DNA of 64,000 bases. Source: Gemmatimonadaceae bacterium (GTDB lineage: Bacteria > Gemmatimonadota > Gemmatimonadetes > Gemmatimonadales > Gemmatimonadaceae). Location of the stretch: NCBI GenBank assembly GCA_019186945.1, contig JABAQJ010000002.1, positions 647,897 through 711,896 of the forward strand, read 5' to 3'. Every line of letters begins with the position of its first letter. The stretch's first letter is position 1. A program made the translations under genes and the position numbers. The notes beneath the pieces are model-generated. The model did no database searches. It was not told the origin of the DNA and saw only the letters and a program-made list of their open reading frames with translations. Shown here piece after piece: positions 61,460-64,000 of the stretch.

Positions 61460-62263
61460 ATGCTCGTTCCCGTCGATCCCCGAAAGCCGCTCTCCCTCAC
61501 AGATGCCGACGCGCGGCCACCCAGGTTCACGCCGAAGGGCGATGAACTCCACGAACGACTCGATCGCGCCGTCTCCGAACTGGGCGATCTGCAGGAAGTG
61601 ATCTACGCCGATCGTCGCTTCGCGATCCTGGTGATTCTCCAGGGCCGCGATGCATCGGGAAAGGACGGCACCATCAAGCACGTCTTCAACGCCTGCAACC
61701 CGCAGGGATGTCGCGTGAAGAGCTTCAAGGCTCCGACAGCCGAAGAGCTGTCGCACGACTATCTGTGGCGCGTGCATCACGCGATTCCTGAGCGGGGCAT
61801 GATCGGCATCTTCAATCGCTCGCACTACGAAGACGTGATCGTCACCCGTGTGAAAGGGCTTGTGCCACGAAAGATCTGGGAGGCTCGCTACGAACAGATC
61901 AACGCGTTCGAGCGGCACCTGACGGAGAACAGCGTGGTGATCCTTAAGTTCTTCCTGCACGTCTCGCGGGACGAGCAGGCCGAGCAGTTGCGCGAGCGGC
62001 TGACGGACCCGACCAAGAACTGGAAGTTTCGCGCTGGCGACCTGGAGGATCGCAAGTTGTGGAAGGACTACACCGTCGCGTACCGGGACGCACTGAGGAA
62101 GTGCAGCACGCGCTGGGCACCCTGGTACGTGGTCCCCGCCGACCACAATCCCACGCGCAACCTGCTGGTCACCGAAACGATCAACGCCCGACTGCGGAAG
62201 TTGAAGCTGCACTACCCGCGCGCTGCCCAGGAGGTCCTGGACCTGGTGCATACGATCCGGTAG
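61460..62263 (+). CDS. ppk2: Polyphosphate kinase 2 (PPK2)
   Basis: 267 residues from ATG 61460. Transfers phosphate between polyphosphate and nucleotides. Walker A GRDASGKDG at 62-70, the lid region with arginines after FKAPTAEELSHDYLWR, and Walker B IFNRSHYEDV near 122; the tail has WKFRAGDLEDRKLWKDYTVA and PWYVVPADHNPTRNLLVTET. The one-domain, short form resembles class III/I enzymes that can phosphorylate both AMP and ADP. No PPK1 in the window. Divergent from the DUF2490 gene. Confidence 0.93.
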   Translation: MLVPVDPRKPLSLTDADARPPRFTPKGDELHERLDRAVSELGDLQEVIYADRRFAILVILQGRDASGKDGTIKHVFNACNPQGCRVKSFKAPTAEELSHDYLWRVHHAIPERGMIGIFNRSHYEDVIVTRVKGLVPRKIWEARYEQINAFERHLTENSVVILKFFLHVSRDEQAEQLRERLTDPTKNWKFRAGDLEDRKLWKDYTVAYRDALRKCSTRWAPWYVVPADHNPTRNLLVTETINARLRKLKLHYPRAAQEVLDLVHTIR

Positions 62264-62364
62264 TCGATTCCGGCGCCACCGCCACGACTCGACGAGGCAA
62301 CGCGCCGGCGAGCGGGCAATGGTCCGCGCAAGGCGTGCCGCGTGACTCCGGATACTCGTCCTGC

Positions 62365-64000
62365 ATGGAGGCTTCGTCACGACTCCTGCTCGCGCTTTCA
62401 ATGCCGCTCGTCCGCGCCCTTGCCGCCGTCCTGCTCGCCCTGCCCGCCGTCGGCGGCCGGGCCCAGGCGCCGAGTGCACCGTCGGGCGCCCGGTTCGGGA
62501 TCGGCGACAGCCGGGACCGCGTGCGCGCTATCCAGGGTCGGCCCCTGGTCATCGAGCGCCTTGCCTCGCTGGGCAGCGAGACGTGGAGTTGGCGATCGGC
62601 GACCGTTCGTTTCGCTCCGGAGAGCGGCATAGTGATTGGGTGGCACGACTCTCAGCGCGAACTCAAGGTTCGTGCACGGTCTGGCGGCGTTCCTACCGCC
62701 AACAGGCAACTCGCACTGGGAAGCTCCGCCGCCGACGTCCTGCGATTGCTGGGACAGCCGGTCGCTGCTGCCCTGTCCGGCGACCGCGAGATCTGGAGCT
62801 ACTTCGGTGCCCGGGCGACGATCGCGATCGACAGCTCACGGCGGACAGTCGTCGCGTGGCGGGATCCCGACAGGCACATGCCGGCGGTGGAGTCCGATCG
62901 CGACGCCGCGGAACGCGCGCCGCTGACAGGCCGCGACGATCGGCAGCGGACACCGCGCGGAGTTCCGGTCCTCGATATCGCCGTGGCCCTTCGCGACACT
63001 GCCGCTGCCACGCGAGCCGCCGGAGCGTTAAACGTGTTGCTGCTGACGATAACCAACCGCGGCGACGGCTCGGCGCTCACCGTGGTGCCCTATGCCCTCG
63101 TTTCACCCGTCGGTGGCGCTGGCGCCCACGCGATCCGGACGGCGCCGATCGCCAGCATCCTTCCCGGTCAATCCGTGACGCGCGAGGCAGAGATCCGGTT
63201 TCCCGCCTCTCTGTCGAGCGACAGGGTCGTACTGCGGGCCGGCGCCAACGAGCAGAACGGATATGGCGTTGCACCCGAAGTGCGCATCGAACTGCCAGTC
63301 GTACCCTCGCATGCGCCACGACTGGTTGCGATCGGCATAGAGCAGGACGACCAGTCCGGAGACGGTCGCGTGTCGCCACGCGAAGCAGTCGACCTGCGCG
63401 TGCGACTCGTGAACGTCGGCGCCGGCGATCTCTCCGGAGCCAGCGCACTGCTCTCGTTAGGTCGCGACGTGTTTGCCGCCGCCGGCACGCCATCGCGGCT
63501 CGAACTCCCGCGCATGCGGCCCGGCGACTCCGCGGACGTCAATTTCTCCGTGTACACGAATGCGCGGGCCGAATCGGTCAGCGTGCGTGTGCGCATAAAC
63601 GATGCGGCGGGCCGTGAAGTCCTGGGCGTCGGCGTCCCGTTGCGCCTCACGGGAAGGACGGCCCCGACGGGCGACGTGCGCACCCCGACCGGTCGCGCAC
63701 CGGCTGACAGCGACGAAGTGGACGCACCGTTCCGAAGCCGCGCTCCGATCAATCCGGATGCCGTCGCCGTCGTCTTCGGCGTCGACTATTACCGATCGCT
63801 GCCTAGGGCCAGGTTCGCCGCCCGCGACGCGGCAACGATGCGGCAATACGTGACTGGCGTCTTCGGTGTGCCGAACGACGGCGATCACCTCCTGCTGCGA
63901 ATGGACGGCGACGCGACGCTGGGCGAGTTCCGCCGAGTGTTCGGTGAGGCCGGGTGGCTGACCCGACGCGTCCGGCCGCAGAGCGACGTCATCGTGTACT
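62365..64000 (+). CDS. Secreted caspase-like (peptidase C14) protein, cut by window edge
   Basis: I translated 545 codons from ATG 62365 (alternative ATG 62401) with no stop to the window end. Signal peptide around LVRALAAVLLALPAVGGRAQ. Two tandem SmpA/OmlA-like modules: one with FGIGDSRDRVRAIQGRPLVI and ETWSWRSATVRFAPESGIVIGW (split here), one with LALGSSAADVLRLLGQPVAA and EIWSYFGARATIAID. Two CARDB/Ig-like domains follow (LNVLLLTITNRGDGSALTVV; VDLRVRLVNVGAGDLSGASA). The last 80 residues open a caspase fold: DAVAVVFGVDYYRSLPRARF, AARDAATMRQYVTGVFGVPN, ending SDVIVYY. The usual SGHG catalytic histidine would come next, outside the window. Confidence 0.84.
   Translation, partial: MEASSRLLLALSMPLVRALAAVLLALPAVGGRAQAPSAPSGARFGIGDSRDRVRAIQGRPLVIERLASLGSETWSWRSATVRFAPESGIVIGWHDSQRELKVRARSGGVPTANRQLALGSSAADVLRLLGQPVAAALSGDREIWSYFGARATIAIDSSRRTVVAWRDPDRHMPAVESDRDAAERAPLTGRDDRQRTPRGVPVLDIAVALRDTAAATRAAGALNVLLLTITNRGDGSALTVVPYALVSPVGGAGAHAIRTAPIASILPGQSVTREAEIRFPASLSSDRVVLRAGANEQNGYGVAPEVRIELPVVPSHAPRLVAIGIEQDDQSGDGRVSPREAVDLRVRLVNVGAGDLSGASALLSLGRDVFAAAGTPSRLELPRMRPGDSADVNFSVYTNARAESVSVRVRINDAAGREVLGVGVPLRLTGRTAPTGDVRTPTGRAPADSDEVDAPFRSRAPINPDAVAVVFGVDYYRSLPRARFAARDAATMRQYVTGVFGVPNDGDHLLLRMDGDATLGEFRRVFGEAGWLTRRVRPQSDVIVY

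Follow-up and report, generated by a model that had tools for sequence, protein, structure and literature searches.

An exported caspase-like protease heads a flagellum-linked three-gene operon in Gemmatimonadaceae

The window, a stretch of 64,000 nt (G000:C1:647897-711896) from a Gemmatimonadaceae assembly of 3.95 Mb, ends inside the gene of a caspase-like protease. Its reading frame begins at 62365 and stays open through base 64000, as the first-pass annotation had it. The contig runs on past the edge, and the complete gene (L002:2365-4527) ends at window-equivalent position 64527 and encodes 720 amino acids. It is the one caspase gene of this genome. The annotation also placed the cut just before the catalytic histidine, and rightly so: the last residue in the window is Tyr545, and the histidine follows four residues past the edge, as His549 in the motif YFAGHG. 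The protein consists of a signal peptide, two N-terminal modules, two beta domains, a disordered linker and the caspase domain, which extends from about residue 460 to about residue 713 and has both His549 and Cys599 in the part beyond the window (Table 1).

Table 1 Features of the protease gene, its promoter and its operon partners. Positions are window coordinates, except for those on L002.
Feature	Position	Strand	Basis
Sigma-28 (FliA)-like promoter: CAAG, 15-nt gap, CCGGATAC	62329..62355	+	Consensus match; start codon 9 nt on
Exported caspase-like protease gene, 5′ part	62365..64000	+	Open reading frame; Peptidase_C14, E 3.8e-10; 16 relatives aligned
Predicted Sec-type signal peptide, residues ~1-32, cleavage near GGRA/QA	62365..62460	+	Read from sequence
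N-terminal module 1, residues 43-100, BamE/SmpA-like	62491..62664	+	Homology to module 2
N-terminal module 2, residues 111-170, BamE/SmpA-like	62695..62874	+	PF04355, E 1.2e-4
Beta domain 1, residues 200-312, CARDB/NEW3/Ig-like	62962..63300	+	Model strands; CARDB in relatives
Beta domain 2, residues 318-427, with DQSGDGRVSPRE loop	63316..63645	+	hhalign against beta domain 1
Start of caspase domain, residues 460-545 in window	63742..64000	+	Pfam, alignment, model fold match
DUF4384 gene (gene 2, P0003)	L002:4524-5468		Overlap with caspase stop codon
LPP20-type lipoprotein gene (gene 3, P0004)	L002:5575-6159		After DUF4384 gene

Peptidase_C14 (PF00656) matches residues 467-700 above the Pfam cut-off, and caspase_w_EACC1 (NF047832), the nearest NCBIfam model, matches below its own cut-off. 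The His/Cys dyad that the first-pass annotation proposed to look for past base 64000 is there, although His549 lies in AGHG rather than in the expected SGHG; Cys599 lies in DACFSG. Structure prediction, another check it proposed, gives a caspase fold. The best match of the model is the caspase domain of MALT1 (TM 0.72 by target length), further matches are caspase-9 and metacaspase-4, and pLDDT is about 90 over much of the length of the domain.

When the protein is aligned with 16 relatives that are 31-42% identical to it, His549, Cys599, Asp488, Asp541, Asp597, Arg605 and Arg615 are invariant in all 17 sequences. That the catalytic residues are intact is well supported. That His549, Cys599, Asp488 and Asp597 are retained despite such divergence makes it improbable that the protein is a non-catalytic scaffold with the caspase domain as a binding module, even though pseudo-orthocaspases are known (PMC6426788) and the N-terminal half is made of binding-type modules.

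The domain has the features of an orthocaspase, namely a p20-type fold, a His-Cys dyad and an acidic S1 pocket with equivalents of TbMCA2 Asp95 and Asp211. Asp488 is aligned with the NDA Asp of metacaspase-1, and Asp597 lies two residues ahead of the catalytic Cys. In TbMCA2, two aspartates take basic residues (PMC6426788), and since Asp488 and Asp597 correspond to them, the window protease is predicted to be specific for Arg or Lys. The invariant Arg605 and Arg615 sit directly behind the catalytic Cys in a loop with pLDDT below 50, which would be a natural place for self-activation. Protease activity, together with the substrate and role discussed below, is what we would infer for this protein.

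At the N-terminus of the protease lies the hydrophobic run LVRALAAVLLALPAVGGRAQA, and most of the aligned relatives are likewise hydrophobic there. An export-type N-terminus is well supported, in agreement with the signal peptide and export that the annotation had read from the sequence. The envelope setting that it had added is supported as well. The BamE likeness does not make the protease itself a lipoprotein. The protease has no lipobox and no Cys near its signal-peptide cleavage region, so this resemblance is no proof of an outer-membrane lipoprotein. The lipoprotein of the operon is the product of the third gene, not the caspase.

The two N-terminal modules had been described as tandem SmpA/OmlA-like modules. 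Their duplication is confirmed by hhalign (98.3%, E 2e-14), and the model of the first has a helix and antiparallel strands. On the other hand, BamE/SmpA (PF04355) matches the second module only, and with 22.3 bits against a cut-off of 23.2; across the family, Pfam detects a BamE domain at E <0.01 in 1 of 17 members. The beta domains, described as CARDB-like, are also homologous to each other (hhalign 97.2%, E 3.5e-11). Pfam finds CARDB in 11 of the 17 members, whereas the window protein itself gives only a weak NPCBM_assoc/NEW3 match in its place. In addition, TIGR03900 (MXAN_5808 peptidase) matches residues 201-427 with E 3.1e-10.

Because the pTM of the whole-protein model is only 0.43, the model does not fix how these domains are arranged in the protease. 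Their order along the chain, for which the annotation suggested a search in other genomes, recurs in the 16 relatives, with a front module missing in four: the second N-terminal module is absent from G236, and the first beta domain from G155, G354 and G029. The catalytic domain is kept in every aligned relative, including those that lost a front module. Conservation of this domain order is far beyond chance. Exported caspases also occur in genomes without FlgI (L050:2728-5646 and L051:2914-5439), where the CARDB-caspase half is kept and a WD40 propeller or another front end stands in place of the BamE-like modules.

The protease gene opens a three-gene operon, in which it is followed by a gene for a DUF4384 protein and one for an LPP20-type lipoprotein. 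The overlap of the caspase stop codon with the start of the DUF4384 gene recurs in many relatives, and the three-gene order in most genomes examined. A search for the caspase over 395 genomes of the phylum gave a match at E 1e-10 in 48. In 28 of them the match reaches E 1e-30 or better and is set off by a gap from the rest, a line that was picked after the gap was seen. Searches with DUF4384 and LPP20 alignments place all three genes in the same 28 of the 395 genomes; beyond these, one genome has LPP20 only and two have weak DUF4384 matches. The co-occurrence of caspase and LPP20 (28/28) has a Fisher p of 5e-42 if kinship is ignored. A contig scan of other phyla gave matches to the caspase domain only, with the front end absent, and a plasmid search likewise gave caspase-domain matches only.

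The product of the third gene gives an LPP20 match (Pfam, E <0.01) in 12 of 15 orthologues, and seven genomes score above the cut-off of 25.9 bits; that of the window genome scores 15.1. The family profile matches PDB 5ok8 (E 1.4e-4). Cys18, which follows TTLLG, is invariant in 15/15, as lipidation would need of the sequence. Among 46 genomes scanned, every LPP20-family match is the operon gene.

For the DUF4384 protein, the model has a helix at residues 76-96, a hairpin at 103-122 and strands at 129-165. No match to FlgT_N (PF16548) above the cut-off was found in 18 genomes, the DUF4384 profile matched no solved structure in the PDB, and Foldseek with the model returned general beta-sandwich matches only. 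Its suggested likeness to FlgP and FlgT is one of model topology alone, with a hairpin of low confidence (pLDDT <50).

The surroundings of the operon vary. Directly 3′ of it in the window genome lies a gene for a large AAA ATPase with a LuxR-type DNA-binding domain (L002:6293-9328), an adjacency that is not kept in relatives. Directly upstream of the caspase gene is a PPK2-like polyphosphate kinase gene (window 61460-62263). A PPK2-like gene (68-69% identity) is also near the caspase gene in G090 and G155, where the operon is outside the flagellar cluster. In G003, from another family of the phylum, five tandem caspase-domain genes stand beside LPP20 and a lipoprotein-like gene (L052:5040-13962); here, partners of this kind have expanded separately. 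Outside the phylum sample, the closest relatives found that carry a name are three tandem caspase-domain genes of Geobacter sp. UBA5730, which lie amid housekeeping genes (L033:4622-8140).

Ahead of the protease gene is a site that, as a consensus match, is a FliA-regulon promoter of the TMAAG-spacer-GCCGATA type. In its CAAG form, the pattern occurs twice in the ~287 kb of strand-bases scanned in the window genome, ahead of caspase and ahead of flgL (L146, minus strand, 3253), with CAAG at the same spacing in both. The −10 element of the window copy has two mismatches to GCCGATAC and is among the weakest of the set. The site is in register with those ahead of the caspase genes, motA and lpp20 of other genomes. 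Most operon copies that are unlinked to flagellar genes have the box GCCGATACTCC and T(C/A)A(A/G)G at sigma-28 spacing directly ahead of the start codon. Of 16 genomes, 6, including a near-identical pair, have exact GCCGATAC upstream, several of the 16 start codons having been re-read as the one following the box, against 1.7% of 253-nt background windows. The same or a similar box also precedes motA in several genomes, flgL in the window genome, an EAL/HDOD-type gene in two or three genomes and lpp20 in two.

An 11-letter matrix, which was built from the operon sites themselves, has matches about equally dense in flagellar and other DNA overall. The two kinds of DNA are told apart by the location of its best matches, at the operon promoters, lpp20, motA, flgL and the EAL/HDOD gene. 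Two other patterns were dropped: an initial sigma-28 search for TAAA with GCCG hit only a single genome, and a loose search for GCCGA failed to separate flagellar from other DNA.

In three genomes (G317, G222 and G031) the operon lies inside a flagellar/chemotaxis cluster, beside cheB-cheR-cheX. A CheZ-like gene, called below the Pfam cut-off, comes directly after lpp20 in all three, and in G317 and G222 motA, motB and flg genes come next. In the sense direction, no comparable box was found at these embedded copies.

Caspase-like proteases are effectors in some defence systems, and the PADLOC caspase model matches the protease with E 2.7e-7. It is nevertheless very improbable that this one is a defence effector, acting for instance against phages that adsorb to flagella. 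No defence genes were seen beside the operon, whose neighbours are of flagellar, chemotaxis or housekeeping type, and the signal peptide and the lipoprotein partner also argue against defence. This reading was dropped because the partners are lacking.

FlgI is present in 80 of the 178 genomes of the family. It is found in 18 of the 19 genomes with a full-length caspase and in 62 of the 159 others, which gives p 2e-6 when counted by genome, although the genomes are related and not independent; at the genus level the association is modest (p 0.033). The sole genome with a full-length caspase and no FlgI, G407, has an assembly that is 74% complete. Many flagellated relatives are without the operon, so the operon is accessory.

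The history of the operon genes was compared with that of FlgI. In genus g11, identities are 95% for RpoB and 89-93% for AlaRS, but only 56-65% for FlgI between G222, G031 and the G114/G201 pair, and the divergence of caspase, DUF4384 and LPP20 follows FlgI. For FlgI and for each of the three operon genes, the closest sequence to that of G222 is from G317, a member of another genus; AlaRS and RpoB do not show this pairing. Over 10 genomes, the partial correlations with FlgI, given AlaRS and RpoB, are 0.66, 0.75 and 0.71 for caspase, DUF4384 and LPP20, with permutation support of 4, 1 and 2 of 5000, respectively. The operon and FlgI are on separate contigs in G114 and G201, two genomes for which a simple transfer as one block does not account. 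Thus, the operon genes track FlgI, and not AlaRS or RpoB, through horizontal transfers. Genus g11 (G031, G114, G201, G222, G065 and G301) combines near-identical housekeeping genes with at least three flagellar types, and FlgI is absent from G065 and G301; the whole flagellar system has been replaced or lost repeatedly in this genus.

Most operon copies, that of the window genome included, are away from flagellar genes. This would suit a general envelope-stress or cell-death protease whose flagellar link is indirect, the operon and flagella both being retained by the same free-living lineages and travelling on the same mobile segments. So would the related caspases that have WD40 or other front ends in FlgI-less genomes, and exported caspase homologues have been tied, speculatively, to cell death or fratricide (PMC3501461). 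The sigma-28-like promoter argues against such an indirect link, as does the agreement with the FlgI tree, which holds where the two loci are on separate contigs (G114, G201) and persists once AlaRS and RpoB are corrected for, and we consider a stress or death protease unlikely. The link of the operon to the flagellum is well supported by position, presence, shared history and promoter. The first-pass annotation was silent on this link and on the DUF4384 and LPP20 genes, all of which lie beyond the window.

In our preferred reading, to which we give a probability of about two in three, the gene product acts in the periplasm as an Arg/Lys-specific protease of the orthocaspase type, is encoded in a three-gene operon and belongs to an accessory complex of the flagellum at the outer membrane. 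The operon and its promoter are well supported by computation. From this promoter the operon would be expressed with the late flagellar genes. The LPP20-family lipoprotein would be anchored in the outer membrane, and together with the DUF4384 protein, in whose N-terminal domain helix, hairpin and long strands are modelled in the order of the FlgP/FlgT ring type, it could form a scaffold around the outer part of the motor. The exported protease may dock there via its duplicated BamE-like and Ig-like modules. It probably activates itself by a cut after Arg605 or Arg615 in the disordered loop, and would then cleave proteins on the C-terminal side of Arg or Lys, at the motor or close to it. Its purpose may be to mature or turn over parts of the envelope while flagella are assembled or lost.

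More tentatively, a caspase-type protease could have become a dedicated flagellar part, with its export under FliA control, held at an outer-membrane accessory ring by the LPP20 and DUF4384 proteins, that matures, recycles or sheds envelope parts of the motor. If true, this would give the caspase fold a periplasmic task other than cell death. Discussion of bacterial caspase homologues has been mostly about cytoplasmic cell death, to which the operon is a concrete and testable alternative: it offers a periplasmic caspase whose regulon is inferred to be that of the late flagellar genes, with defined partners and with residues predicted for catalysis and processing. The operon further suggests that a DUF4384 protein can be an envelope partner of the protease; elsewhere, such proteins are fused to caspases or lie beside them.

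The first-pass annotation called a secreted caspase-like protein uncommon. This is partly right, but a survey of 2012 already listed 46 sequences of caspase homologues from bacteria whose N-terminal helix could be a signal peptide, and in one phrase it names flagellar proteins among operon neighbours (PMC3501461). Beyond that remark, our literature search, which covered few subscription journals, returned no paper on a flagellum-linked caspase. As far as checked, the enzyme family is known, and the front end, the partners and the flagellar regulon are new. As for the partners, FlgP, FlgT and LPP20 of H. pylori have an SHS2-like fold in common, and members that form rings have a hairpin insertion behind the SHS2 helix (PMC12222027). 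In H. pylori, a pull-down recovered LPP20 together with a motor accessory protein, and LPP20 was also tested as a candidate for the disk (PMC11756786).

Among known systems, the protease shares with the orthocaspases (PF00656) the caspase fold, AGHG and DACFSG, two acidic S1 residues and a flexible loop after the Cys. It differs from them in being exported, with two BamE-like and two CARDB-like modules in front, and in its DUF4384/LPP20 operon, which is linked to the flagellum by promoter, co-inheritance and, in three genomes, position. MALT1 is a protein of Ig and caspase domains with Arg specificity, and this paracaspase (PDB 3v4o, 4i1p) is the best fold match of the model. However, MALT1 is a cytosolic signalling protein of animals, its Ig domains are different, and beyond the fold it has no sequence kinship with the window protease. 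The double beta-domain region is common to the window protease and the long periplasmic peptidases of the MXAN_5808 family (TIGR03900), but those are serine peptidases, and the window protease scores 38.7 bits against a family cut-off of 661. With the SHS2-like proteins LPP20, FlgP and FlgT, the operon has in common the LPP20-type third gene, the helix, hairpin and strands modeled for the second, and the flagellar link. Unlike FlgT, the second gene has no FlgT_N match and carries a DUF4384 beta domain, and we know of no protease in the ring operons of Vibrio or Campylobacter.
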